Position numbers and translations under genes: made by a program. The notes below the pieces were generated by a model. That model made no database searches. It was not told the DNA's origin and saw only the letters and a program-made list of their open reading frames with translations. Shown one piece after another: positions 4,601 to 47,898 of a stretch of 64,000 bases of DNA. Numbering within the stretch: the first letter of the stretch is position 1; each line of letters opens with the position of its first letter. The stretch comes from Mytilus galloprovincialis (Eukaryota > Mollusca > Bivalvia > Mytilida > Mytilidae): assembly GCF_965363235.1 (NCBI RefSeq), contig NC_134841.1, positions 36,237,440 to 36,301,439 on the forward strand. The letters run 5' to 3'.

Positions 4601-7600
4601 TATTTCAATATAACATCAAGAATAGAAATTAGGAGTTAAATCACCATAAGTTTTACCCTGACACAAAAATCTGTGTATGTCTGAAGCTAGGAACTTTGTC
4701 AGTAGGAATGGGAACTTTAAAATGTAATAGATTACATTACAATAACAATGAAATTCAAATAATAATTACACTTGTATTTTACATGGTAATGGATTAAATT
4801 ACGATTACATATAATCAGATATTGCAAAGTGTAATCGATAAAAGGTGGTAACGATTACTGATCAAGATTATACCCTATGACTGTTTGTCAGTGATTGGCT
4901 TATCTCATATCTTAACATTTTTTGGTTATTTGGAGGCCTAAGCATTTATGCAAGATATTTAATGACTGTTTCTGTTGAGTTTATTCACTTCTTTTTATAT
5001 TCTGAATCATTTTAATACAGCTTGAGATATTGTATAGACATCTATCTATAGTTAAAGACTGTGTTGACCTCTAAATGTCCTTCGGTTATTTGTGTAATTT
5101 AACATGTACTCAAAATCTAATTTTATTCAAAAATGAACTTGATCGAGAACTTTGTCAGGTTTGTCAATGACTTATTATAAGTATTAGTTGTGTAGGTAAA
5201 ACAAATTAACATGAGTGGCAGAAGTCAGGATAGAGTTACTCATCTTGGTAAATAATTTTTTGGTGTTTTTTTTTTTTAAGAAAGTTATCTTGTTAATCCG
5301 TTATCCCTTAAACTACTACAATGGTGAGTGCAAAAAAACTTGATGGTTGAAATTACACTCACTAACCTGCATGAACTTAGTGACCTTGATGGAGGACGTT
5401 TACCAGTTTGTTTGGCTGTACTATCTTTAGGTACCAATGGTGTAGGTGGACCACAACACCATGAATGGCAGTAGACTGTAGCTGGGTAGGTCTCAGATAG
5501 TAGACATAAGGCATGACAACACCCATACTACAATAAAGGAAAAAATAAATACAAACTAAGCACAATATTACAGAGATATTTTGTTCCTTTACCGCTTGCT
5601 TAGGTGGAATAGCATTGGTAGTATCAGGTAGTCATATAAAAATGGTTTATTAATTTGTTATTATTGGTGGGATATTACTTTTTTGTGGATTTTGTGGTCA
5701 AAGGTATCAGTAAACCACAAATTTAAATGGTTCTCTGTGCCCAAAACCAAAAAATCTTTAATGCAAAATAAATGAAAATGGTAGTCTAGTCAACAATAGT
5801 TTTACACAAAAATTTAAACAAATTGGGTCCTTTGTATTTTTCTAAAATTTATTTAAATGTCTCTACGATCAGAGAGAGACTGGAAAACCATGAAGAAAAT
5901 TCAGAAATTTTTGAGAGGTTTTTTATTAAAGTGAATAATGCGGCTTGGTGATTATTGCAATAATAAATTCTCACAAACTTTTATCTGATATACAGATTTT
6001 CCTGAAATAACAATAATTGAACTAACTTTTTTGTCCATTTTTCAAAAACTGCAATAATAAATGCACGCAATACTTTCTGAATTATAGTATCAACTATGAT
6101 ATTCTAAAATCGTTTTCCATCTGAGTAAACTTACCGTCAACTGCTTGGAATCTGACATATTTAGGATATGTAGTAAGTTCATTACAACTCTTGATAAATT
6201 ACTCTCTACATCAGACTGTACAGGCACATGATTTATCACATGGTATGGTTTGACTAGACCCAGAACAAGGGGAGGTAAATCTAGACTGCTATCTTTTGTC
6301 ACATGACACATCAGTCCCTCCACTTGGAATCTGGATTCTGTTATAATAGGATCATGTTGGGAATGATCAACAGGAAAGAACAGGTTGGGAATTAATCTGA
6401 AAAATAATAACATATTCCAATTGAGCAAGTAAATAGTTAAAGTTTATGTTTTAGCTTTTGTTGTTACTTTACTTCCAAACAAGATTGCACAAAAACTTCT
6501 GCAGCAAAGATGTATCAAATTCAGAGTAATTTAAAATTATGTTGAAAATTAAGAAATCATTCTATGGACTTCCAATAGTCTTTTGGATAACAGATTTTAA
6601 ATACAATACAATCTAAAATGTCCTTACTTAAGTTGTTCCATATGATCCTGTAATAAATGAAGACCAAGATTAAATGTAAGTGTTAGATCTTAGACTTGGT
6701 TCTGAGTATGTTCAGAGCCTGAATACTGTGTTATGGCATCTTTAAAACTCAGGAAAAAATCTCTGAATAGCAGGACAATACTATCACAAGTGTCTGTGCA
6801 GCATTATGACATACTCATTTTTCATAAGAACTTACTTGACAAGTGTCTGTGCAGTATTGTGTCGCACTCTAATGTCATCTGAACCAAAATAGGCCATGAT
6901 GATATCTGATACAACTCGCTTTTGTAAATTTAATTTCTGAAGAAAAAATTTACAAAATATTAGATTTATCAATGGAAAATCATCTAGAATTATGAAGACA
7001 ATCACTTTTTATATTCAACATAGTCAAGACAACATTTCATTGGCATTTCTACATTTTACCTTTGTTCCTTCTGTCATTATCTTTTTCAATGGTAGACTCC
7101 CCAAAAAATGTGAATTGCTTAGGTATTTCTTTAGTCTTTTGTTACTGATAAAATCCTCTGGTAATTTGTTAATGATTGATAAAATGAGAATGGAAATATG
7201 GAATATGTCAAAGATACAATAACCTGACCAAATATCAGATAACAGCCGCAGGTCACCAATGGGTCGGCAACTGATTCTGTTTTCACTTGTGTACTTACTC
7301 CTAGGTAGTGGTTGTCTCCCTTCTGTACATCATCACAACACGATTCTAGATGTGTAACCACTCTGAAGTTGATAGAGCCAATCAAATCTAATATCTCTAC
7401 CTAGAAAACAATACAATTTTTCATAGTTTACGTTTTTCTAAAATTGTTTAACATTTCACAGCAGTTTTATAATTTTACTTTAATCATCCTGTATTTTTTT
7501 ATATCAACTATGTATTTAAATTGTATCACAGATCAATTTTAAAATGTGTTACTACGTTTTTTGATTGAGTTAGGTCATTCCAATTGATATTTTATAGTCT

Positions 7601-10600
7601 ATCTTTCTATGTTGTGATGTTATACTATTGTTTCAGAAAATGGAGAAGGTTTGGTACCATTAAAACATATAATCCCACTGCAATTGTTTGCACCTGTCCT
7701 AAGTCAGGAATCTGATGTTCAGTGGTTGTTATCTGTTTATGTGGTTCATAAGTGTTTCTTTTTTTGTTTTTACATACATTAGACTGTTGGTTTTCTCATT
7801 TAAATGGTTTTACACTAGTAAGTTTTGGGGTCCTTTATAGCATGCTGTTCGGTGTGAGCCAAAGGTCTGTTTTGAAGGCTGTATTCTTGACCTCTTATGG
7901 TTTACTTTTATAAATTGTTATTTGGATGGAGAGTTGTCTCATTGGCACTCATACCACATCTTCCTATATCTATGTAACAATCAATACATTATTGCATCAT
8001 ACAACAAAAGTCTTCTATATCTCTAATATTTGCTGATGTACATTAAAAATTTAACATTCAACCAATCGTTCTATATCGCCATAGACATGTGGTATTATTG
8101 TTCATCAATTTTCTGTTATCTGAGAGAAGAATTAGCTGGACTGTCTAGTACAAATCTGCTCTTCTCTTATCTCACTTGTGAACTTCCAAGTGATTTGGTC
8201 TGTGGTGGGGAGTTGCCTAATTCGCAATCATACCACATCTTCTTATTCTATATTACCTTCATTAATCAGTACAATTTTTTTTTCTTTTCTGAGAGTAGAC
8301 TTACCTTGACTAACCAGTATGGATTTTCTCTGATTTCCAGTAACTTAAGCAAAGCTTGTAAACCTATGTTACTGTCCACACTTAGTAACAGATCATGGAT
8401 ACATAGTTGTAAGGCTGATAATGCCAGTCTGACAGCAACAGAGGAACTGTCATCTAACACACCAAGGATCGTTTCTAACAATGTGGAAATTGTAAGAGCT
8501 GAAAAAATAATAATATATCTTTTGATTAAAGAATGGAATACATGTACCTGTCTACAAAAATAAGATACAAAATTTACTTCTCTATGATTATTAGAATACT
8601 TAAAACCCACTATCCCTCTACAAAATGGTTAAAATAAAAACAAATTAAATTAAATTTATTCTAGATGCCCTTTGTGAGGTACACTACAGCTTGGGTGGAT
8701 TTTGCTTTGTCCACCGGCCCATCATATTGTGTTTTTTTAATTAAATCAAGTCACAAAAAAATATTAAAATCTTTTCAATAATTTTTTTAATTTTGTGTAT
8801 ATTAATCAAATTCAATGTAGCCTATCACCCCTTCAAAAGTGGTTTAACTTTGATTCTTGATCTAGTCAACCATAAAAATGAAAATAAAAGTGAACTTTAT
8901 CGTCATCCAATTCATCTACATATAGACCTGACCAGCCTACAATCTTATCTATATCAAATGAATAATAGCTTATATATAGGAGATGTTGCATGATTGTAAA
9001 TGAAAAAAAAAGTAAAATCACAAAAATACTGAACTTAGAGGAAAATCAATTTCGGAAAGTCCATAATTACATGGCAAAATCAAATAACAAAACGCATCAA
9101 AAACGAATAAACAAGAACTGTCATATTCCTGACTTGGTACAGGCATTTTCAAATGTAGAAAATGGTGGATTAAACCTGGTTTTATAGCGCTAACCCTCTC
9201 ACTTTGATGACAGTCTCATCAAATTCCGTTATATAATGAAACACCTATCCTCCAAAGTTCAAATGAAGTGGATATAAGCAGTTATAGGTAACTGTATGGC
9301 TTTGGTTAACTATGGAACATACCTTTAACATCATAACCAAGAGTGACAGTCCACTTGTTAAAGTTGCCTTTAGCTGCCTTCAAGGCTGAACGAACAAAGT
9401 TACCAATCAGCAATGTCACATTGCCCTTTAACTGTGGGTCAAGGTGACTAGCATATATCATAACATCTTGTATCAACTGATAATGTTCTGAAAAAAATGT
9501 GATCACTATATGTCATGACATAAAAATAATTCTATTAAAGGCCTTCATTGATGAAATATTATTTTTTCAATACCCAATATTATTCTGACTTTGAACAAAT
9601 TGAAAGGTGCTACAAAAATTTTAATACATGATTTTTTTTAAGGTCACAAGAGTGTTCTAACAACTATCAAAATATAAAGACAATCATAAGGATTGATACA
9701 CGGACAGTATACATTGTGATCATCTGAAATTGCTTTTCACTAGATTTAAACAAAAATCCTTTACTACTTCCAACAAAATGTCAGTAACGCTTGATCAAGG
9801 TTGATATTAAATAAATTTACTACACTTACCAGTATCTACATCTTTGAACACATTATGGAAGAAGATTTCTGGTAAAATGTTAAGTATACAACTGATACAT
9901 CCCAAGGCTAAGGATTTGATACTGACACGAACTTTCCTGTCGGTAATTATCTCTCCTTTATCTCCAGCTAGTAAAAATTTACGACAAATATATCTAGCAA
10001 AGAAAACGATAGGTTTTTCATCATCGGTTAAAGCTCCTATATGATCTAAGGGAATGTCTGTATCTTTCAAACTATTTTCTGGTTGTTCTGAGGAAACTTC
10101 TATTTCAATTTCAGGATTTCCATTCATATCCTGTATAACAGACAACTGAGGTTGAGTTTGATGTGTTGGACTAAGACTCTGGACACTATCTAATGTCTCC
10201 TGACTACCAGTTCTCATTTGTGATAAATTGGACCTTTCAGATTTGTCATCGTTCAAATCACCGATCGTAAGACCAGAATATTCTGTGTCTGATGTAGTAA
10301 ACACAACCTGATTGCTGTCACTATTTATTTTCACATTCTCTGATTTCTGCGCCTTTCCATCATCTTCATCCAATATCTTGTCAGGTAAAACATTTTCAAA
10401 TTCTGTCATGAGATGTGATTGGTCAACAAGTTCGTCTGCTATGGATTCAGAAATATCTGTATCATCATCTACAGAAATGTCGTCTTCTAATTTAGACATA
10501 CTTGGTACAGCATTCATCCCTATGAAGAAGAAAAAACATCATTTCTATGAGTTTTCCTAATTTTGCTGGGAAAAAATGCTAACCAGGACCTAAGCATAAA

Positions 10601-13600
10601 ATTAATATTTTGTTCAACCTGTTAAATTAGTTGCTCTGCCTTTACTTTTTGTGCTTTTTTAACATTGATTCGATAACTGACACATCAAAACCTTACTTTA
10701 TGTTAAATTTGTTTATTCCCATAGCTAAATTTGTTTTAATTATTTTTTGTTTAGATGTATTAAAATCATTCGAACACAAAGTACAAGAAGTTATGATTTT
10801 TTACTTGAACAGACAAAGTCTGTACCACTATTTTACAATAAATTATTTATACTATTGTTTATAATGTTGCTGTGTTTCAGTTATCAGTCATTGAAAAAGT
10901 GAAGTGCTTTATAAGGACTGATTTTAAGTGTGGTAATTCTTGTGCCACATTATTCATGGCATAACATTTTTTTTCTTTCTTCCTAGATACTTGTCAGTGT
11001 TTTTATTTATTGTTTTGGTTTTAAGTGTATATCAAACAATTCCTATAAAGAAAGATTTAACATGGCTGTAAAATGCAAGCCTTTTTATTCATCTATAAAA
11101 ACCTTACAGCAATTTATAAATGATTAACTGCTGTGCAACAGTGCTAATACCTCCATATCAACATTCTTTTTGCTATAATCTACTATTTCATGGAAATATT
11201 ATCTCATGTACTGCCATTTAGTCAACTGAATACTAATATTTAGGGCAACTATAAATAACTTTTATCTTTAAGAAACTATAAATATCTTTTATTTAAGCCA
11301 ACTATAAATAAGTTTTATTTTAGCCAACTAAAAATCACTTTTTACTTCAGCCTTATTTAAGCCAACTAATAACTTTCATTGTCAATAAAAATACCCAACA
11401 TGACTATTGAATAAAACAATTGCACAATGTACCTAGGTCAGTTGTTTGTGATAAGACATCCACCTTGTACACAGTTGTCTTTTTAATACTCCCTCTAGTG
11501 TTGAGTATGGACAGTAACACTGGTGTGGGATGTTTAAATAACTGCTGACATACTTCTAAAGCAGCATTCACAACGTTGTGGTCTTTATGGTTCATCATGA
11601 ACACCAATATTTGTAAAACCTACATGTAGGAGATAAAAAAAAATATTATAGTGACCTCTTAAAATTACCCTAATTTTTATTATTTTTAAAAATACTCAGG
11701 ATGTTGATTAGGTTTAGAGAACTCACAAAGACAATCGAGTCATATACTCACTTGGAAACAGCCGATTCATGCAAACATGCTTTAAAAAGATCATTTTATT
11801 TAGTGTATATTGAAAAGCTTTTTAATCAGAAGCTGCACTAAGCTTGATTTAAAAAGACAGTCACATATTCTGTTCTGATTTGACAACATTTTTTTAATAA
11901 TGTACATATCTACAAATCCTTTTATTTGATTGTTTCTTAAGAATTTCTTTAATTGGTCTACACTTTGACAGACCATTTGCTATAACTACATTTGTAACCT
12001 ATGTCAACATTTTGTCAACTGATGTGTAAACTGAGTAAATGCACTCACAATCTTTCCATAAAAGTTTGAATAGAAAATTAAATTGTATTCGTTAGTATGT
12101 TACCTTTATCAGCTGTTCTTTGTTTCCTGTATCCTCTTTATCTTTAGCTGTATTCCCAAAACTTCCCTTCATTCCATGATCTTGATTGGCAGGGTCAGAC
12201 AAATGGGGGATCAACGTTCTTAGACACAACAGAATACCAAGCAACAGATATTGTGGCTGGTCACCATCGACTGGTATTACATAATCTGTAAAATCAAATA
12301 TAACATACTGTGGATTCATTATTATTCGTTGGATACCAATTTTCGTGGATTTCGTGGGAACAGGTAACCACGAATTCAAATGTTCTACGAATTGCAAGTT
12401 GTCTATAGGGTTGTATGCATATTTTGACAAAACCACGAAATCAAATATACATGAAATGAAGGTTTTTATCAATCCACGAAAATTGAAACCCACGAAAATA
12501 AATGAATCCACAGTAAATTGTCTTACTTATGTCAGGTAGGTTAGTCAACGTTCTTAGACACAGTAGAATACCAAGCAATAAGTATTGTGGCTGATCACCT
12601 TCAACTGGTATTACATAATCTGTAACATCAAATACGACATAAATTTACTAGCTCATGTCAAATAGGTTTGATGGGAACCTGCTCATGATGCATTTACAAA
12701 GCTTACTGTTCCGTGTGAGCCAAGGCTGTGTGTTGGAGACAGTACTTTGACCTATAATTGTTAACTTTTTTATACATGTGACTTGGATGCAGAGTTGGGC
12801 TATTTTTTGCTCTTTTGTCGGGTTGTTGTCTCTTTGACACGTTTCTGTTTCCCTTCTCAATTTTGCAATAAAGACGCTAAGTAGATTCAAAACAAAACCA
12901 TATTGAAAGAAAAACCCTTCCCATATTTAGAATATTTAACTTTATTATATTTTATATGCCATTCGAATATTAAATGAAAATCAAAAAGAAGAAAAAATAT
13001 AATTTCGATTGATAAATGCTTTTATACCACAAATTTCCTAACTAACTTACCAACAAGTATTCCTAGTAAGTATTTAAAGAAAGAGCCTGGACTCCTACTA
13101 TAACGACAGATCAATACTAAACTAGACGCAGCATTCCTTCTACATGATGCAAGGTTTGACCGCAGGTTTGGTAAAAAAGCTTTCAGGAGGGCCTACAATA
13201 ATATATATATATCAAAACAAGTAATGGATTTAATTCACCCTTCACTATTGCATATTTGTTAACAGTCATCAGCACTACACCCTTGTATAACAAGTTTCCA
13301 TGCATTCAGAATATAAAAAGACTAACAAGAATGTCCAAGTTCTCAAAAAGACCATTTAACATCATGGTAATAAGATGTTATATTGCTTGAATGTGATGCT
13401 GTCAAAGATTTTCTTTTAGGATTTTGTTATAGATGTGTTACTATTATTTTGGAAAAAAAATCATTTTACTAGAATAATGTTTGGTTTTGGGATATTTATT
13501 TTAATTGTCTCCCTTTGAAAGACTTTAACTTAATGTTTGAATCAAGGGTAATTTTTATAAAATATGAGTAAATTTGAACAGTTCCATTACACCAATAATC

Positions 13601-16600
13601 TGCAATAGGAGACATCATTCAAAGCAAAAGTTAAGCAAGAAAACTCTGATAACTACAACTGCACACAAATCATGTTACCAGGTATATGGACATTTATCAT
13701 GTAAGTGAAGGAATATGGACTGTCAGAAGCCTGTTGTTCAGTAGTTGTTGTTTGTTAATGTGGTTCATAAGTGTTTCTTTTTTCTCGTTTGTTATATACT
13801 AGAACATAAGCCGAGGCTCTATGTTAAAGGCTATACTTTGCCCTTTAATAGTAAACTATATATACATTTTGACTCGGATGGAGAGTTGTCTCATTAGCAC
13901 TCATACCACATCTCCTTATTTATATTTAACATGTACAAGTAAGTAAAATAATGAACCTTACCTTAACCTCTGATTCTGTTGCAAAGCTCATCAATGGAGG
14001 ACAGATTTTCTGCATGGCTATTGACAGTGTTTCTTGGATAGCTTCATCTTCTCTCTTGCATATCCTTGCCAAACATGGTAATAAGTTCACTATGTATGGT
14101 CTGTAAATATAGAGATAAGTTAAAAGATACACATGTGTGTATGGTTAGGTATCAAAATTCATAATCAAAGAACAAAAAATATCATAACTGAAAAGTGAAA
14201 GAAAACAAATAAGTTTTGTATAATAAATTGTGAACACTAATTATTTCTATGGTGCTCATATAATATATAGAATTTTGGCATTTTTATTTTTGATACTGGC
14301 TTTATCAGCAAGAATATCAAGCGAGCCCACTATGAGAAGCTGATATTCAAGGTGATAAAGTCAGTATCAGAAAATAAAATGCCATTATTTTTTTTATCCA
14401 CAAATTGTCTTCACTGAATTTATTTTTTTCGGCTAAGAAAATAAAATAAATTGAAATAGCTTGTAAAACTTCTTTTTTAAGAGTACTAAACATTGGGATA
14501 GATGCTTGATTTTATGAATAAAATTGTGTGCATTACATTCATAAATTGATGCTGTGATGTTGCTGCATTGATACATGAAGTCTTTGCCTAATATTTTCAA
14601 CTATCAAGCCATGTCTGTAATCTTTAAAATATTTTGCAGTAAGATCAAATGAAAAGTATACAAATTGCTGATAATTTACAATATGAATTAAATGAAAACC
14701 AGATAATCGGTACAGTCCATAAGATTTTATCTATAATTACAAAACAAATTACCAATAAAACAAATTGTGTCATACCTGCTTTTCTGTGGTCTGATCAGAT
14801 GTGCCATGTCAGCAAATCTCCACACAGCTGCTCTTAAACTTCTAGATGCACCATTCTTCTTTATCTCTTTATATAACTCTACCTGTAATCTTCCTAAATT
14901 TGTCTCTAACAGGACCTAAATATAATTTGAATAATCAATTAACACAGAGATTTGTCTCACCTTTTTGTTATTTTGATAGTTAAATGCAAATGTAGAAATT
15001 GAAATAGCAGCAATATTTTTACATGTAAGTTATGTCACTAGACCATGACTGAGGGGGCAGGGTCTAACACTCTGACAGACTAATCAGTATTTCATATTTT
15101 TTGCATTCAAAAAATAAATAAATCATGTTTATTCACGAGAGGGATGTCTAATGTAAAGATTGTGTAGCAGTGTTTATATTTGGCACTCTGACATTCAGCC
15201 TCATTATCACAAAGCAGTAGAATTCTATAAAGGAGGTAGCTGAGCTTAAAAATCTTCCACACTACTATACCTCCTTACAAAGTAGGGCCAAAGTGGGTAA
15301 ATATTGAATACACCTGAAAGCCACAAACTCAGGATTATGAAAATAGTTAGCTAAATGCAAGCAAGAGGAGAACAAAACCAAGGCTGCAAAAACAACCTGC
15401 AGGAATCAGGTATTTTACATGGCTTTTCACCAGGCTGAATAATACCTAAGATGACAGAAATGCAACATACATTGGGATGACAGTAGGATACTAGCCTTTA
15501 GCTCTAAGGTTATTCTCACTAGTGGAAGACAGCCTAAGGAATGTTTAATAATCAAATGACATCTTTACATACACTAAAAGACAAATTGAATATAGAAAGT
15601 TTGAATATCAGAACAATTAGTGTCACAGAAAAAAATCCAGATTGACAAATATCTTACTAGATCTGATTCTTTCATTTCATACATCTCTGATTTTTTTTTC
15701 ATTAAATAGACCTAAAAATGTCTCCATGACGACCCTCACCTTTATTGATCTGTTAATGCATTCATCTCCTACCATTCGTACATCTGACTCAGCATCATCA
15801 CATAGACCTAGAAATGTTTCCATGGCAATTCCTAGGAATTTGGGAAAATCTGTGATTGCTCTGGTAATATAAAATAATACTTCAGTGAAACAAATATTAT
15901 GGAAATTATTTCATTTTTGACTTCTATCTTTCAATTATTTATGCAGTTATTAGAAACAAAAACAGCCTAAAAGCAGAAGAATTAAATCATTAAGTATAAT
16001 GTATACATATACTGATTAAATTATTGATAAATTTGTTGGGGAAAAAAATTAATTTATTATAATTGGGGTCTATATCAAATGTTCAATTTGATTGCAGTGT
16101 TATTTCAAACAGTAAATTATAGTTGTTTCTTTATTCAACAAGACATGCAAGAGAAGCTATTAAAGCATCCACTATAAATAATTCTGACCATTTATTTTAA
16201 CATAATCTATTCTGACAACATGATTTTTTATTTCTTTTCAAAAGAAATACAATTTCAATAGTTCTTATTATACTATTTAAGACATGTGTTTAATTTTCAT
16301 TGCAGTAAATATATTTGAATGCCTGGATATAAATTTAGCATTTCTGTGAAACAAAGCATGTTCACAATTTATTAAGAATGTTACTTCAGGTATCAAAGTT
16401 TTTCTAATTATGTTTTAGCATATCTATTTTCAAGGAATTTGTGGGTGCCACGAACATTATTTGCATTTATATATTATTACATCTCAATTCACCCTTTCAG
16501 AACCTAATGTATTCTCGGTAATATTTTCAAATGCACATACCAAATTGTTGTGATTGGCATAGAACATAATAAACAAAGAAAATTCAACCAATGATGTAAC

Positions 16601-17525
16601 AGTATTTTCATTTTGGTGTACTAACCATGAAAATACCCATAGTCCTTCAGATTCTGAATAGGCAAATAAATAAAGTACCTCATGTTTGTTGCACAAATGC
16701 AATCTGCTACTATGTTGCAGTTTAATATCTTATCTTTCTTTGTAACCACAACATCTTTCTTCCTAAAAAAAGAAAAATGTTATAGTAGTACTTGAGGTAT
16801 AAAAAGTAAAGTAAAAGGACATACATGTATCTTTATTACCATTAAAATAAAATCTTTTCACATACCCAACAACACCAAATAAATCTTGTTTGAATGTGTT
16901 AAAGAGTAGCTACCTCATCTCTCATGTTATTCTTAATGTTAAAGTAGATTTGTAATTTGTATGTCATTTTTAAAGAAACTGTTTTACTATCTTAAATAGA
17001 AAATTAAAAGAATAGGTTAAAAATACGGGTTTTGCTCATTGTTGAAGGTTAAATAGAATTTAAAAGGTCCAAGTGAATAAACTACACAGAGAACAGTAGC
17101 TATTGTATTCATCCAATAGGACAAGTGAACTTACAACAGTTTAAATAGCCTGGTAAGATAGTTATCATATTGGGTTCGCAATAAAACTGTTTAAATATGG
17201 AATAAGTCCAAAAACTAGCACAATAAAAAGATAATCCTTTTTTTTCACGTATAGATATCTAAAAAATATACATAAACACTCATATTTCTATCATATCTGA
17301 ATGATTTATTTTATTTGCCTCCTAATGGTCTGATATACCTTTATTAGTAAGGATAATAGAAGTCAATTAATGGTAACAGATGTAAACTTCTCAGCATGTA
17401 AATTTGACCATACAACAAAATTGACAAGAGTTAACTCACTTAGATGATTCCTCTGTAGCTGTCCCTTGTGGATGAAAGACTTTTAAGGCTTCAAATGCCT
17501 TGATTAACTTCTCTATAGTCGCCAT
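61..17525 (-). CDS. HTT: Huntingtin, N-terminal part (22 coding exons, continues beyond window)
   Basis: Huntingtin is a large HEAT-repeat scaffold used in vesicle transport, autophagy and transcriptional control. Exons in transcript order: 17440-17525, 16679-16762, 15740-15860, 14776-14915, 13962-14100, 13051-13192, 12104-12285, 11433-11619, 9830-10519, 9323-9487, 8305-8498, 7299-7400, 6836-6936, 6135-6396, 5367-5527, 4372-4514, 3686-3818, 2754-2941, 2234-2352, 1419-1604, 618-838, 61-136. All have AG/GT borders and phases add up to 1,274 codons without a stop. Matches to human HTT, recalled from memory, run collinearly along the whole length, for example [18 protein letters not shown] in exon 21 and [16 protein letters not shown] in exon 3. 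The start has a good context (G at -3, G at +4). An AG acceptor-like site lies only some 11 bases upstream of the ATG, so a 5'UTR intron is likely. The last ~60% of the protein lies outside the window. Confidence 0.97.
2234..2941 (-). CDS. HTT: HTT exons 18-19
   Basis: Exons 2754-2941 and 2234-2352. Exon 18 contains the highly conserved [11 protein letters not shown] motif (human NPPSLSPIRRK), preceded by [20 protein letters not shown] lysine-rich disordered stretch then spans the junction into exon 19 ([14 protein letters not shown]). Exon 19 ends with [20 protein letters not shown] (human [20 protein letters not shown]). Confidence 0.94.
3686..6396 (-). CDS. HTT: HTT exons 14-17
   Basis: Exons 6135-6396, 5367-5527, 4372-4514 and 3686-3818. 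Exon 14 carries HYVINHVPV-type loop sequence and [15 protein letters not shown] (human MENNLSRVIAAVSHEL). Exon 15 carries [20 protein letters not shown] (human FGCCEALCLLSTAFPVCIW). Exon 16 carries [20 protein letters not shown] and [12 protein letters not shown] (human [32 protein letters not shown]). Exon 17 carries [18 protein letters not shown] (human LGDRALVPMVEQLFSHLL). Identity is secure from collinearity. Confidence 0.94.
4690..4870. repeat. TAATTACATT-rich dispersed repeat in HTT intron 15
   Basis: Degenerate reiteration of TAATnnATTACA-type words. A second stretch of the same style is at 45060-45240 in AMACR intron 4, also ending near a GGGAAC/GACCC-like flank. Probably one dispersed family. 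Confidence 0.4.
5935..6092 (-). mobile_element. MITE relative (TACTGTAAATTCAG family), inverted copy
   Basis: Contains the GCAATAATAAATGCACGCAAT end and CTTTCTGAATTATAGTA terminus, matching in reverse the element at 43791-44660. Diverged and noncoding, in HTT intron 14, its right end about 40 bp before exon 14. Confidence 0.5.
6836..9487 (-). CDS. HTT: HTT exons 10-13
   Basis: Exons 9323-9487, 8305-8498, 7299-7400 and 6836-6936. Key matches: [17 protein letters not shown] with human [36 protein letters not shown] and RENPYWLVK with human LKDESSVTCKLACTAV and [19 protein letters not shown] with human [29 protein letters not shown] with human LLGDEDPRVRHVAAASLIR. All four are HEAT-repeat segments. 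Introns hold dispersed repeats at 7189-7275, 7603-7973, 8177-8252 and 8988-9240. Confidence 0.94.
7189..7275 (+). repeat. Dispersed mussel repeat fragment
   Basis: Contains GGAATATGTCAAAGATACAA and CCACCAATGGGTCGG-like words shared with 34003-34135 (same orientation) and, inverted, with 12775-12860 and 34225-34330. Lies in HTT intron 12, immediately downstream of the exon 12 donor. The track-length open frame across exon and repeat is an artefact of intron read-through. Confidence 0.45.
7603..7973 (+). repeat. Dispersed repeat family A, long copy
   Basis: About 370 bp, closely similar to 27062-27434 in NGLY1 intron 2. It runs from CTTTCTATGTTGTGATGTTA to CATACCACATCTTCCTATAT. Shorter 3' pieces are at 8177-8252, 13721-13926, 22222-22300, 25198-25276 and 54585-54640. 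No open frame. I recognise it as a common mussel repeat but cannot assign a superfamily. Confidence 0.65.
8988..9240 (+). repeat. Dispersed repeat with a short open frame (…[21 protein letters not shown])
   Basis: In HTT intron 10. The open frame at 8990-9187 ends [17 protein letters not shown] plus three residues, wording that I recall from many bivalve loci, so I call it a repeat and not an HTT exon. There are no splice borders in HTT phase. Role unknown. Confidence 0.5.
9830..10519 (-). CDS. HTT: HTT exon 9: acidic disordered linker and return to HEAT repeats
   Basis: The largest exon found here (690 bp). The first ~170 residues are rich in D, E, S and N (for example [19 protein letters not shown]) and correspond to the long disordered loop of human huntingtin where caspases cut. 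The short block [14 protein letters not shown] parallels human NQYLGLQIGQPQDED. The exon closes with [20 protein letters not shown], matching human VRVSVKALALSCVGAAVAL. The loop is clearly shorter than in human. No caspase site is claimed. Confidence 0.95.
11433..11619 (-). CDS. HTT: HTT exon 8
   Basis: Encodes [20 protein letters not shown] then [19 protein letters not shown], matching human YELTLHHTQHQDHNVVTGA and LELLQQLFRTPPPELLQTL. It ends with a short serine/threonine-rich stretch that leads into the disordered exon 9. Acceptor ATGTAG, donor GTACAT. Confidence 0.93.
12104..12285 (-). CDS. HTT: HTT exon 7
   Basis: Acceptor TTTACAG, donor GTAACA. Encodes [19 protein letters not shown] followed by [14 protein letters not shown] and [15 protein letters not shown]. 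It matches human [26 protein letters not shown] and SLKGSFGVTRKEME in order. A second copy of its first 26 codons lies about 240 bp upstream in the transcript direction (12527-12619). Confidence 0.93.
12306..12515. mobile_element. MITE with TA target site, between HTT exon 7 and 7'
   Basis: 210-bp element bounded by near-perfect inverted ends (CTGTGGATTCATT and its reverse complement) with TA on each side, as expected for Tc1/mariner-derived MITEs. The interior has repeated GTGGATTTCGTGG-type stretches. Diverged or partial relatives are at 5668-5790, 41340-41503 and 46850-47046. Confidence 0.7.
12527..12619 (-). CDS. HTT: Candidate duplicated/alternative HTT exon (exon 7')
   Basis: Copy of the first part of exon 7 inside intron 6. 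It has an acceptor (TGTTACAG) and a donor (GTAAGA) and is exactly 93 bp, so it could be included in frame: the incoming base G from exon 6 gives 31 whole codons plus one base, and that base joins exon 7 to give N-YVIPVDG. Across the 26 comparable codons there are 8 base differences; 7 are silent and 1 gives D to E. The similarity extends about 20 bp into the intron beyond the acceptor, so this is a DNA duplication. The last six codons (TNLPDI plus one base) are not shared with exon 7, and the donor lies five bases from the end of a MITE at 12306-12515. Use as an exon is inferred and not shown; it may be an inert remnant. Confidence 0.5.
13051..16762 (-). CDS. HTT: HTT exons 2-6: start of the N-HEAT domain
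   Basis: Five exons (16679-16762, 15740-15860, 14776-14915, 13962-14100, 13051-13192). They encode [65 protein letters not shown] and [16 protein letters not shown]. Each corresponds in order to the first HEAT repeats of human huntingtin ([67 protein letters not shown]). Exon edges fall where phases stay open, which supports the splice assignments. Introns contain dispersed repeats (see separate entries) but no other gene. Confidence 0.94.
13721..13926 (+). repeat. Dispersed repeat family A, partial copy
   Basis: Shares GTAGTTGTTGTTTGTTAATG, the GTGGTTCATAAGTGTTTC block and the GAGAGTTGTCTCATTAGCAC end with 7603-7973. In HTT intron 5. Confidence 0.55.
17440..17525 (-). CDS. HTT: HTT exon 1: N17 helix without polyQ
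   Basis: Encodes [17 protein letters not shown], matching the human N17 amphipathic helix at 13 of 17 positions, then [12 protein letters not shown]. There is one glutamine where vertebrates carry a polyglutamine tract, and no polyproline region. K6, K9, K15 and T3 of human N17 are kept. The phosphorylation sites S13 and S16 are A and V here. The donor is GTGAGT after 28 codons plus two bases. The ATG is fixed by this conserved N-terminus; an upstream in-frame ATG has no similarity to huntingtin. Confidence 0.95.
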
Positions 17526-24970: not shown

Positions 24971-27900
24971 CTGTAAAAACATTGTATCTTATTATAAAAT
25001 GAATCCATTCCATCATTCTCCATTGAATGGTTTTATATATGTTTTATATGAAATATTCACTGTATATTTGTATCCCGGGGCAAATACACAAATACTTTGA
25101 TAGCTGTTTAAAGTAAGTGAAAGCAATGTACCGCTACATGCACATTGAAAATCTTTTTTTTTTCATACATAATTGATGCTATTAAAAAATATATTCTGTG
25201 TCATTTGGTCTCTTGAGGAGAGTACTACATGTACATGTGTAGTTGTCTCATTGGCAATCATACCACATCTTCTTTTTCTTATATGTAAAGCAGAAATTTT
25301 AATATCTTTCTTCTTTAAATAAATAGATTTCTGCTATAAATCTCAACTTTATTTTGCATTTCCTTTTAAAAGAAATTATTATAGAAACTTTTAAAAGAAA
25401 ATATTATAGAAAAGTATGTTTAGAAATTGTCATAAAATTGAACAAAAGTACTATTTTCCATCTAGTAATCTATACCTTTGAAATCAAATTTCCATGTCAA
25501 TGATGATTTTGAGGACCCTTCTTTTCTAGCAAGGTAGACCATCTTCCAATCTTGTTCTTCTTTTCTAAACATTTTCTCACATTTAAACAGACATGAAGAA
25601 AAGCCTACAACTTTATCTGCATCCAAATCGCTCATTCGAACATATTCATCTTTGGCACAACTATATCTTATATGGAATGTTTTGGATTTTTTCTCGTCTT
25701 CTGTCAGATTGAACACATATTCAGGTTTGGATTCAGCAGAAGTTGTACCTACTTCCCCTCTAGCTTGACGCCATGCCAATGATCCAGTTGTCCTTCCCGA
25801 TAGATTCTGACCTTCGGTTGACTTAGGGGTGATGAATTCCACTAACTCTGTTAATAATCTATTAACCATTTCTTGTTTTCTAGTATCAGTTACACTAGAT
25901 AACTTGCCATTCCACAGCTTATGTAAGACCTGAACAAGCCATGTTTCTCTACATTCATGTCTCCTAGTTAATAACTCAGAATGTTTAGACGAATATCGCC
26001 ATGAGACATCTTGAACTTCATCAGCAGAAAAAGCAAGAACATAAGTTAACTGCTTACCCCATCCAGATTCATACAAAAGAGGTTTATCACAGATATTTTC
26101 ACAGGGATCACAATGTAACCAACGTTTTTGTGAAGGAGAATACACTTCTGTCCATACATGATCTGTCCAGTCCAGCACATATCTAGCTTCAAATCCCATT
26201 GCCCTACAACATAGTGTAAAACAATTTGCCCATTCTCCACAGCGTCCACATCTGGTTTCCAACAATTTCTCTGGACTGTTATATCGGGGAAATCGTATAA
26301 ACTTTTGACATTTTTCACATTTGTAATTTTCAACACGACCGGCTCCCCATCTAGTATCATCAGCAGTTGGAGTTGCCATTCCAACACTTGTTGGTTTGCC
26401 ACCACAAGTATCACATGGAGGTGCATCAACCCATTTAAAAAAGGAGTTTTTAAACCATGCTAAAAGTTCTAGGATCAAACAATCCCGTATTCCAATGTCA
26501 CCTACATTACCGGACTGTGCTAAAGCCTGAAATGATTTCTGGGCTTTCTCTATTAAATGCTGTGTTGGTATAACATGTCTTGCTTTGGCCTGAAGACCCT
26601 GATTTTCATATTTCAAAACATGAGACAAGTTACTCTCAATCTTCTGGAAAAACTGGCGTTCTAATTGCTGAAAGAAACAAGAGAGTATGTTATTATCAAA
26701 TGAATTTCAGTTGAATAATTGTAATACATTTGTACTAGCAAAACTGATACATGTATATGCACTAATTAAATCAGTTTGTTACACTTATATTTTTTAATTT
26801 CCTACATTTATTTTGTTGGCTTTTATAGTTTGTCATAATGTTGTATAGAATAGAATAATTGAAAGTTTTCAAATATGAGCAAATAAAAATTCTTAATTAC
26901 CGGATGATCTTATTTGAAGGGAGACAATTTCACCAAATCTCCCTACTAAATAAAGAATTAAACTTTATATACAGAGGAACAAATGTAACGCATGCTTCAG
27001 ATGCAAATGAAAATTGCAATGTATCATCAGCTGACCATTTTGAAAAAAGAAAATGTGTAACCTTTCTATGCTGTGATGTTACACTATTGTTTCAGATAAG
27101 GGAGAAGGTTTGGTACCTTTAAAACAATTAATCCCGCTGCAATTGTTTGCACCTGCCCTTAGTCAGGAATCTGATGTCCAGTAGTTGTTGTTTGTTTATG
27201 TGGTTCATAAGTGTTTCTCGTTCTTTCTATAGATTAAACTGTTGGTTTTCCAGTTTGAATGGTTTTACAATAGTAATTTTTTTGGGGCCCTTTATAGCTT
27301 GCTGTTTGGTGTGAGCAAAGGCTCTGTGTAGAAGATCTTACCTTGACCTATAATTGTTTACTTTTATAAATTGTGACATGGATATCGATGGAGAGATGTC
27401 TCATTGGCACTCATACCACATCCTCCTATATCTAGTTATATTATATTTTGACTTAATTAATGTTTATATACTTTTGACTTAAACTAAAAATCTTTAACAG
27501 CATACATGTATCATTTTTTTTAAAGAATGAACTATGACAGTTTATTTTAATTAAATTCACTTGAAGAAGTAAACAAATTCTTCTAGTCAAAAAATTATGT
27601 CTATGTCCATAAGTTAGCCATAATTGGAAATTTATTACTAGCATCACTATGCCATTATTGCAAAATGCAAATATATATTTCTTTCATGTAATCACTATTA
27701 TATTTATAAAGCAGTGACTTTTAGTGAAAGTAGGACTAGTCAGATGGACTATGGTACGAAAATGTATTTCACAACTTCATAATTTGATGGAAACTGTTTA
27801 CCAGTATAACAAGTTGTTGTTGATCTTGATTTATGATTTAAGTTTGTAAATGTATATGCATGTTACCTGATAATTTGGAAGTATAGCAGAAGTTGAAGGT

Positions 27901-40637: not shown

Positions 40638-41339
40638 TTACACAATATTACAATTCCTTCAAACACCCTTGAAATAATGTTTATAAGATTAAAGTCAATC
40701 CTGTACTTTTTGAAGAGGTTTTATTGTTTCTAAATATCAATGGGTAAAGGTTTTCATGTTACAGTTCAAATTTAAAACTTTAATCTGTTCACCTGCTCAG
40801 AAATAGTTGATGGGTATTAAGTAAGTGCTGCATGATATAAATGATCTTACCCTCCAATTTCAATGAAAAAAGAATGGAAGCATCTATTTATCAGACATAC
40901 TATAAACCAAGAGGCCCTTGTTTGTCTTTATTACTTACCTTGGGGAAAAGCCACTTGGCTAACCTAGATCAAATAACTTTCGAGTTATTAAAAAGCCAAA
41001 ATGACAAAACCATTAAAATTAACATTTCAGACCCAATAACTCAAAAAAAGAGTCCAAAAGTACCAGTAGATAGATCTTGTCATGCTGATTCATCAAAATC
41101 TTACATTTTTAGTCTTTTCAGAACAGCTAAAAAATGAGAAATTTTTAAGAAATAAAATATGCTCAATTCAGAGGAAACTCCAAAAACTAAATGTAAAACT
41201 GCTGTTGTTTATGTCACAGTAATATTGATATGCTCACATGCCCTACTGGTCATACTAATTATTTGGATGGCCAAGTTAAAGCTTTTGATTTATTTTTCTA
41301 TTTTACATAACATCAACATCTATTTTTTTGTGTATTAAG

Positions 41340-41503
41340 GAAAACTAAGATGTCCATGGATATCTGATGTCATGGATTGCTTAGGTCTGCATACAACCCC
41401 ATAGACAATGTGTTATTTGTTGACTATATAATTTTGTGGTTCATCTTTACCCACAAAATCTCCAAAAATTTGTGTCCCGTCAATAATTATGAATCCACAG
41501 TAC
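41340..41503. mobile_element. Partial copy of the TA-flanked MITE (see 12306-12515)
   Basis: Ends TTATGAATCCACAGTA and carries CAACCCCATAGACAA, matching the interior (CTATAGGGTTGTATGCA) in reverse. The upstream frame at 40841-41137 (98 codons) was not recognised and lies in repeat-like DNA. Confidence 0.5.
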
Positions 41504-45700: not shown

Positions 45701-47898
45701 CTTATCTAATATATGTATCTAAAAAATTATAAGTAAATGGTAAATGGAGAGAATAGGTCTAAAGGTCAATTTTTTGCCAAAATTGTGAAAAATCTAATAT
45801 TGGGTACCGTATGCTCTGATTTGTCTCAGATATTCAACTATATTTTGTTGGTCAATATGCTCTCATACAGCTGAACTGCTTATTTAAAATTTGCTAATGG
45901 ATTCCACTATAGAAATAGTTGAAATATTAATTTTTCAGCAAAGAAATAAGTAAAATGTTTGTATCATAGATTTCTAGATAAGCCCCATAGTATAAAAATA
46001 CTTGATAGCAAAATGAAGTTAGACCAATTTCTTGTAATCATAAGCTCCTAACTTAGCTAACCTGACATTGATATATAGTTGATATCATGTCCTGCCTTTT
46101 TTGCAAGTGGTCCTTTCTGTCCAAATCCATTGATTCTTGCATACACCAATCTAGGGTTGTCAGCTAATAGTTTATCTGCACCTAGCCCTAATCTTTCCAT
46201 TACTCCTGTAATGAAAAACATCTAACATTTTTAACAGCTTAATGATATTTCATTTTTACCTGAGGTTTAAAATATTATTCTGTATTTATATTTTTAGAGG
46301 TAAAACTATTGTAAAATCTGCCCCAAAAAAATATTGTAATGTTTTTAAACCAGTTCGTTATAATTTGAAAAGCCTTTTTTATTTTCAACTTATAAATTAT
46401 GTACAAATGTTAATGTATTTGATTTCCTTAGAAATTTGATATAAATACTTGCAATTCTGCTATGTTTGTTTTTTGGGGTTTTTTTTATGCTCTAAATATT
46501 TTTAGTCTTGGTTTCTCAAATTTTTAATATTCAGACTACCTAAACAGAAACTTGTGTCATTTGCACTGCAATTTGTATCATATATCTATACTATACTCAT
46601 AAACCTTTTCTTCAGACCAGTTGCTTGGCATATTTTTTACATGGTTGCATGTACATTGTATTTACCAAATCAGACTCTGATTGTCACTGAAAATTTGCTG
46701 GTTAATGATGCTAAGATTGAAGAAAACTCTTTTACAATGGAGGGTTACTAAGAATTCTTTGAATGAGAATAATGTTCAGAACAAGTTAAAATTTTGATAT
46801 TTAGCTTGATTTTTACATTTAATGATTATTCCTAAACTTCTTTTAGTTCAGTATTCGTGGGATTCCAATTGTCATGGATTTCATGAGTATAAGTGAACCA
46901 CAAACTTCAATGTTCAACAAAGTACAAGTTTTCTATAGGAATATTTTCAAACTTAGGCAAACCACAAAACCAAATATCCATAAAATACAATTTTCCTCAA
47001 TCAAAAAAAAAAATTGGTATCCATAAAGATAAATAAATTCATAGTAATCCTAATCTCACCAGGTCTAAATGGTTCTATGAGAACATCTGCTTTGGAGCAC
47101 ATCTTATGTACAATATTTAAACCTTCTTTTTGTTTTAAATCAATGGCAATTGACTGTTTTCCTCTCCCCATACAATCTGTATCTGCAAAGGATTTTGTCT
47201 GAAAGTAAATAGAAAAACTCAAAGTTAATTCTTGAGAATAAGTGGTGTACAGTCATGACAACAAGCTTTGTTTGAAAAAAAACCCCAACATGTACATAAT
47301 TTATTAATTATTGGTTTTGGCTTGAAAACAAACTAATGTCAGGTAAAGATTCTAAACCAGATGTGTAATAGTGTGCTGCTTTTTATACATGTATATAATA
47401 TAATGTATCAATAATGTAGAATTTTGTTTAATGTATTTGCATATTCTGTGTGGTATTTTTTTTGCAATGTACAAATGTATTTGTCTTTTCTTAGGAGTAT
47501 TATGTGTATTGTATTTGTCTTTTCAGTGTAGTATTTTGAGTACTGTGTCTTTTCTGTTATTAAAATGTTGGTGTTTTTCAACTTGTGGTTTAAATTGCCG
47601 TTTAGGAATATTCTTACATCTTTTTAAACCTAAAAATATGTATAATCCATGTACAAATTCCCAAGTTCTTAAATACTTTTACAATCAACATATATTGAAC
47701 AAATCTAAAGAAACAATATCTTTCTTTGATTTTAATTCATCTCAAATTCTAAAATTTGCATAAATGTTGTACATTATCAAATAATCATACCCTGTCTATT
47801 CTAATCACATTAGCTCCGAAGTCAGAAAGAATCATTCCACAGAAGGGTACTGGAGCCAATCCACCAAACTCTATCACTCGGATACCTTTCAATGCCAT
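42362..47898 (-). CDS. AMACR: Alpha-methylacyl-CoA racemase, complete
   Basis: CoA-transferase family III enzyme that epimerises (2R)-methylacyl-CoAs so that branched fatty acids and bile-acid-type intermediates can enter beta-oxidation, in peroxisomes and mitochondria. Exons: 47791-47898, 47060-47198, 46062-46205, 45377-45559, 43538-43705, 42362-42756; 1,137 bp, 378 aa (human 382). Matches human throughout: [120 protein letters not shown]. The catalytic His (AGHD), Asp (LLADFAG) and Glu (GALEP) are present. Ends in SKL, the canonical PTS1. An AATAAA at about 41869-41874 may be its poly(A) signal. Confidence 0.97.
42935..43030. repeat. Short tandem pair (CCATAATGACGCCTTTTGAC)
   Basis: Two about 40-bp diverged units with CCTCCATAATGACGCC and CTCCATAATGACACC, in AMACR intron 5. 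Noncoding. Confidence 0.6.
43791..44660. mobile_element. Composite MITE in AMACR intron 4
   Basis: Outer ends TACTGTAAATTCAGAA and TTCTGAATTTACAGTA are perfect inverted repeats with TA borders. Inside are one near-full unit (43791-43968) and one partial unit (44508-44660), both with GCGTTTACAACTCTGTC and TTTTTTGCAATAATAAAAAC. They flank a second element (43969-44507) with GGCTCGCTGG/CCCACGAGCC ends. This indicates nested insertion plus duplication. Confidence 0.65.
45060..45240. repeat. TAATTACATT-rich dispersed repeat
   Basis: Reiterates GTAATCATTAATTTAATC-like text. Related to 4690-4870. AMACR intron 4, upstream of exon 5 and close to exon 4. Confidence 0.4.
46850..47046. mobile_element. 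Diverged TA-flanked MITE copy in AMACR intron 2
   Basis: Retains ATTCGTGGGATTCCAATTGT, CTATAGGAATATTTTCAAA and ATAAATAAATTCATAGTA from the 12306-12515 family. It ends about 14 bp before the exon 2 donor. Confidence 0.5.
47791..47898 (-). CDS. AMACR: AMACR first coding exon
   Basis: 36 codons, [11 protein letters not shown]…VIRIDR, phase 0 donor GTATGA. The ATG follows TTTACAG directly, so the coding part may begin right at a splice acceptor with the 5'UTR on an upstream exon that I could not locate. This start is chosen because it aligns with the human MALQGI start. Confidence 0.92.

Follow-up and report, generated by a model that had tools for sequence, protein, structure and literature searches.

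A partial duplication of huntingtin exon 7, later interrupted by a MITE, as a candidate cassette exon in the mussel Mytilus galloprovincialis

Results

The huntingtin gene in the window

The window analyzed here, a stretch of 64,000 nucleotides from Mytilus galloprovincialis, carries on its minus strand the 5' part of the huntingtin gene (HTT), which runs in 22 exons and 21 introns from position 17525 to the low end of the window. This structure was obtained by spliced alignment to P0001, a huntingtin-like protein of 2984 residues from Mytilus californianus; the identity of the alignment pieces was mostly 88–100% and dropped where a piece overran an exon edge. The exons are collinear and encode huntingtin, which identifies the gene as a huntingtin orthologue. 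The piece comprising exons 6–8 matched human huntingtin with an E value of 1.6e-32 and scored 26 bits against the Pfam model Htt_N-HEAT_1, below the cut-off of 31.2 bits. Over the exons compared here, 6–8, the architecture of huntingtin is kept from molluscs to people, and no relative of these exons was confirmed in bacterial and archaeal genome contigs or in viral contigs. Exon 6 (13051–13192, minus strand) ends in phase 1 with ...TTG/GTAAGT in the alignment to P0001. Exon 7 is complete (12104–12285, minus strand; 182 nt), is entered in phase 1 and is left in phase 0, the phase in which exon 8 (11433–11619, minus strand) begins. The shortest of the 21 introns in the aligned part of the gene is 342 nt.

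A second copy of the start of exon 7 in intron 6

Intron 6 contains, on the minus strand, a sequence (12619–12545) that repeats the initial 75 nt of exon 7, from which it differs at 8 positions. It is preceded by an AG acceptor at 12621–12620 (...TGTTACAG) and followed by a GT donor at 12526–12525 (ATAA/GTAAGA), and between these sites lies a candidate cassette exon of 93 nt (12527–12619), made up of the 75-nt exon-7 copy and 18 nt of sequence derived from the intron. The repeat extends over 97 nt without gaps at 89% identity, which is beyond chance. A previous sequence-only reading of this DNA had described the copy as spanning 26 codons of exon 7; the copy is present, but the two sequences share 25 whole codons. 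Direct comparison confirmed its count of 8 base differences in the shared codons, 7 of them silent and the remaining one an exchange between D and E; all 7 silent differences are transitions. When 151 bases around the copy were used to query the assembly (1.385 Gb in 331 contigs), two places stood among the best candidates scored, namely the copy and exon 7. Thus, two adjacent homologous exon copies lie in one gene, as in a tandem exon duplication, the second exon copy being partial, and on the sequence comparison we regard the origin of the copy by duplication as established.

To the upstream side, a dispersed repeat in intron 6 (12700–12797, minus strand) adjoins the duplication; it matches sequences at 27296–27383, 7839–7936 and 13809–13888.

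The duplicated unit

Beyond its 75 nt the copy continues as CTAACCTACCTGACATAAGTAAGACAATTTA, the terminal TA of which belongs to a 206-bp element. This continuation aligned without gaps to AACCTATTTGACATGAGCTAGTAAATTTA, the intron sequence immediately upstream of the copy, with 22 matches at 29 positions in the part used. The local score of 32 was equalled by none of 3000 dinucleotide shuffles (best shuffle, 30) and was reached by only 4 of 1826 segments of the window, all of them overlapping those two places. The unit duplicated in tandem and in frame is consequently 126 bp long and straddles the start of exon 7, with 51 nt from the end of intron 6 and 75 nt from the exon. The left unit occupies 12545–12670 (minus strand; 51 nt of intron end and 75 nt of exon-7 start). 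The right unit is split into its first 29 nt, an intron part at 12516–12544 (minus strand) that is homologous to 12670–12642 and carries the putative donor, and the remainder at 12211–12307 (minus strand), made up of the final 22 nt of the intron and 75 nt from the start of exon 7. Excision of the element together with one TA (208 bp) places the two units exactly 126 bp apart and leaves a 42-codon read-through open.

These boundaries alter the picture of the intronic part. The shared intron sequence, previously put at about 19 bases, measures 51 nt, part of it lying beyond the element, and 10 of the 49 positions compared differ. Over the 20 bases that directly precede the copy and exon 7 there are 3 differences, the copy having CG where the exon-7 side has TA, and G where it has T. 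An acceptor and a donor had also been ascribed to the copy. Both the AG and the GT are present, but the donor and the last 18 nt of the candidate exon are intron-derived. The idea of a simply duplicated exon that brings its own donor was rejected, because the donor sits in the intron part of the right unit.

A MITE in the right unit

The element that splits the right unit (12308–12513, no strand assigned) comprises 206 bp between TA flanks and has inverted ends, TACTGTGGATTCATT with the TA included, that form exact inverted repeats of 15 nt counting the TA. The whole insertion amounts to 208 bp including the TA target-site duplication. Two long, diverged relatives in the window lie at 46852–47046 (72.6% identity) and 41325–41502 (71.5%), each without one end of the match, and a further match of 77 nt lies at 5658–5734 (72.7%). 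The element is therefore short, has terminal inverted repeats and a target-site duplication, and, counting relatives within the window, is dispersed, as a MITE would be. Because it interrupts the right unit only, the duplication preceded it. On this sequence evidence the duplication, the boundaries of its units and the later insertion can be taken as established.

The MITE lies 22 nt upstream of exon 7 (12308, minus strand), and this position suggests that the expected branch-point region of the constitutive exon 7 is now element sequence. The 241-nt intron between the candidate donor and exon 7 had a predicted RNA folding energy of −77.7 kcal/mol (z = −8.1), and none of 200 shuffled sequences was as stable; such stability is unsurprising given the inverted ends of the element. 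In the folded interval (12286–12526, minus strand), the hairpin of the element reaches into the flanks, and the minimum-energy form pairs the putative donor with the acceptor region of exon 7 at its base. According to this folding model, the hairpin could influence the splicing of exon 7 itself.

Reading frame and splice sites

Joining exon 6, the copy, exon 7 and exon 8 gives a message that reads through, with 31 residues added in frame. The candidate exon is entered and left in phase 1 and contains no stop codon, so that the frame is kept on skipping and on inclusion alike; this bears out the proposal that a 93-nt length would be neutral to the frame before exon 7. The sequence-only reading had left the choice between a cassette and a mutually exclusive exon. 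Cassette use is possible with respect to frame, donor and a workable intron, but mutual exclusion was rejected: the copy has phases 1–1 and exon 7 has phases 1–0, the acceptor of the copy was duplicated with it whereas the donor is intron-derived, and the copy in place of exon 7 breaks the frame, so that exon 8 is read for 10 whole codons before a stop.

The element changes what can be spliced or read at this place. The intron from the candidate donor to exon 7 measures 33 nt without the MITE, which is shorter than animal introns are generally known to be, and 241 nt with it. If the element is removed, use of the upstream acceptor yields an in-frame insertion of 42 residues with no stops; with the element in place, read-through from the copy meets a stop inside it. 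The site in the left unit that is equivalent to the donor reads GCTAGT, and a GTAAAT follows four bases further on. For comparison, hypothetical frame-length duplications were generated at the 21 introns of this gene, and 7502 of 23247 were stop-free; including the one-in-three chance of keeping the frame, an in-frame and stop-free layout is expected in about 0.11 of hypothetical duplications of similar size.

Splice sites were scored with position weights derived from the 21 introns, real sites being scored on a leave-one-out basis. The donor of the copy scored 6.1, above 7 of the 21 real donors, a value attained by 27 of 676 decoy GTs. The acceptor of the copy scored −1.8 in a model from which exon 7 was left out, where the exon-7 acceptor scored 6.6; with exon 7 added to the model, the score of the copy rose to 2.9. 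In this admittedly crude acceptor model, 1 of the 21 real acceptors lay under −1.8 and 4 under 2.9, and 188 of 636 decoy AGs, scored in the model that includes exon 7, reached −1.8. The donor score thus argues for a usable exon, whereas the acceptor score argues against one.

Substitutions between the copy and exon 7

The two copies differ at 7 of 18.3 silent sites (pS 0.38) and at 1 of 53.7 replacement sites (pN 0.019), which corresponds to a Ka/Ks of 0.035 over 24 codons. Gene conversion is not supported, as the silent sites diverge more than the shared intron (10 of 49). Exon 7 is under constraint whatever the copy does, and the null model therefore combined a constrained exon 7 (omega 0.02) with a freely evolving copy; it was stopped at 8 differences and run 3000 times in each of eight settings that varied transition bias and base bias. 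In all eight settings, only 0.0023–0.0207 of the free-copy runs ended with a stop-free copy and no more than one residue change, as against 0.88–0.94 of the runs in which the copy was constrained. A free branch would be expected to show 6.4 residue changes at the intron rate (Poisson P = 0.012) and 14.3 at a rate taken from Ks (P = 9e-6).

The silent pattern had been read as a sign of selection on the protein sequence. The bias outlasts a fair null and is suggestive of such selection, but it comes from one short stretch that was picked for looking odd, and present and past constraint are indistinguishable in it. The changes are differences between the two copies within this one genome, and each may have arisen in the copy or in exon 7. 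At the one replaced position, 18 mollusc-like rows of the alignment (17 named, and the unnamed P0017) have D in 15, E in 2 and G in 1, and human huntingtin has E; this distribution indicates that huntingtins accept E there.

Related proteins

An insert at the border of exons 6 and 7 was absent from P0001, the Mytilus californianus representative of a cluster of 11 of which one member is visible, from 17 other mollusc-like full-length proteins (16 named, and P0017) and from the 3 insect proteins aligned. A search with the spliced peptide of exon 6, copy and exon 7 gave 3 hits from 983 candidates, none of them with the insert; two of these, P0002 and P0003, resemble genomic exon-7 frames close to the mussel sequence. 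The protein database is clustered at 90%, which makes these absences weak negative evidence on the insert.

Discussion

Origin and present state of the copy

The explanation that fits best, to which we give a probability of roughly 0.55, is that the duplication was followed by the MITE and left a copy that is now skipped or included at a low level. Its starting point is the 126-bp in-frame tandem duplication across the border of intron 6 and exon 7 (51 nt of intron, 75 nt of exon); the order of the sequences then places the entry of the MITE later, at a TA that lies 22 nt before the true start of exon 7. Before that insertion, the upstream acceptor would read both units as a 42-residue insertion, and may have been used in this way. 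A separate exon at that stage is unlikely, since splicing from GTAAGA to exon 7 would have removed an intron of 33 nt. The MITE would have widened the interval to 241 nt and added a stop to the read-through, so that today the copy should enter a full-length protein only as the 93-nt cassette, through the intron-derived donor. Given an acceptor weaker than the one of exon 7, the copy is at present most likely left out in splicing or included at a low level; the acceptor together with the database evidence suggests that present use is probably minor or none. The silent bias would then stem from selection, either past or weak and still acting, on an in-frame isoform that is tolerated, and could date from the state before the MITE, when the duplication could be translated as 42 in-frame residues extending exon 7.

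A different balance of the same evidence would make the copy a functional cassette under present selection, which adds 31 repeated and probably helical residues to the N-terminal HEAT region in some tissues or stages. The open frame, the donor that beats 7 of 21 real HTT donors, the Ka/Ks of 0.035 and the free-copy null (P = 0.0023–0.0207) all agree with such use; the weak acceptor and the lack of the insert in the Mytilus californianus representative (1 visible of 11 cluster members), in the three spliced-peptide hits and in the 17 other mollusc-like proteins do not, and a stop-free in-frame layout, at about 0.11 of hypothetical duplications, is weak evidence for it. We consider this reading possible but doubtful. 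We hold it unlikely that the MITE made an unspliceable duplication into a working cassette, such that some mussels have an isoform whose N-terminal HEAT solenoid carries an additional helical segment and which selection now maintains. Slightly less credit still is due to the opposite idea of a dead relic, in which the duplication was never used and the 7 silent differences of 8 are the outcome of luck, the constraint on exon 7 and transition bias. It draws on the weak acceptor, on exon 7 adding mainly silent changes however the copy evolves, and on the transitions, which make up all 7 silent changes and of which about 40% are silent in this leucine-rich stretch; its difficulty is that the null with a constrained exon 7 and a free copy already allows for that constraint and still gives 0.0023–0.0207, and the intron rate gives a Poisson P of 0.012.

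The copies might also have differed from birth, through unequal exchange between divergent haplotypes or through an assembly join, with both allelic histories under purifying selection. Mytilus galloprovincialis is indeed described in two reports as highly heterozygous and hemizygous (PMC7653742, PMC11183127), with heterozygosity given as 1.73% on average in the one (PMC7653742) and 3.27% in the other (PMC11183127). However, 18 differences in 124 bp far exceed the average of 1.73% (Poisson P ~2e-11), the clean 126-bp unit, into which an element with its target-site duplication came later, resembles natural history, and no third place for the copy appeared among the best assembly candidates scored. 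Such a beginning is hence highly improbable, and the divergence makes an assembly or allelic origin as the sole cause very unlikely.

Comparison with known systems

Three published systems offer parallels. In the oyster Crassostrea virginica, the alternative oxidase gene has a tandem duplicated exon 10 whose copies are interchangeable and both expressed (PMC5589949). The mussel gene resembles it as a bivalve tandem exon duplication with two possible splice forms; it differs in that the copy takes in no more than the initial 75 nt of the exon's 182 nt, that a swap breaks the frame, and that the mussel copy is a candidate exon predicted from sequence, in contrast to the two expressed oyster forms. 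Human HTT itself has a hominid-specific exon 41b between exons 41 and 42, which adds 30 residues, is ascribed to an Alu insertion and is backed by RNA-seq and PCR (PMC4444280). Both are lineage-specific in-frame huntingtin exons associated with a transposable element, of 30 residues in human and 31 in mussel; unlike 41b, the mussel candidate is predicted from genomic sequence and has a coding part that is mostly a copy of exon 7, with the element beside it. The short intermediate intron that separates duplicated exons in OGDH is restricted by distant branch points, which prevent the insertion of transposons (PMC7969005). There as here, the splicing of neighboring duplicated exons hinges on the length of a short intron, but OGDH exons 4a and 4b are mutually exclusive, whereas the mussel element is proposed to permit the joining of both exons.

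Among open-licence papers with both huntingtin and Mytilus, none was on mussel huntingtin by its title, and none of the matches listed for HTT exon duplication named that subject; a search for bivalve huntingtin HEAT repeats gave only an unrelated title. If the candidate exon is used, it would be a natural in-frame insertion in the N-terminal HEAT region and a gauge of how far the solenoid tolerates change; if it is unused, it would be an ordinary duplication in a repeat-rich genome. In either case, the locus lays out stepwise how the copying of part of an exon, together with a small transposon, can prepare a new exon.

Another gene in the window

Elsewhere in the window, an open frame of 388 amino acids on the minus strand (25462–26628) matches the Pfam PNGase PAW, transglutaminase core and Rad4 domains, and these matches point to a peptide:N-glycanase gene with a single long exon, or to a retrocopy, as its probable identity.
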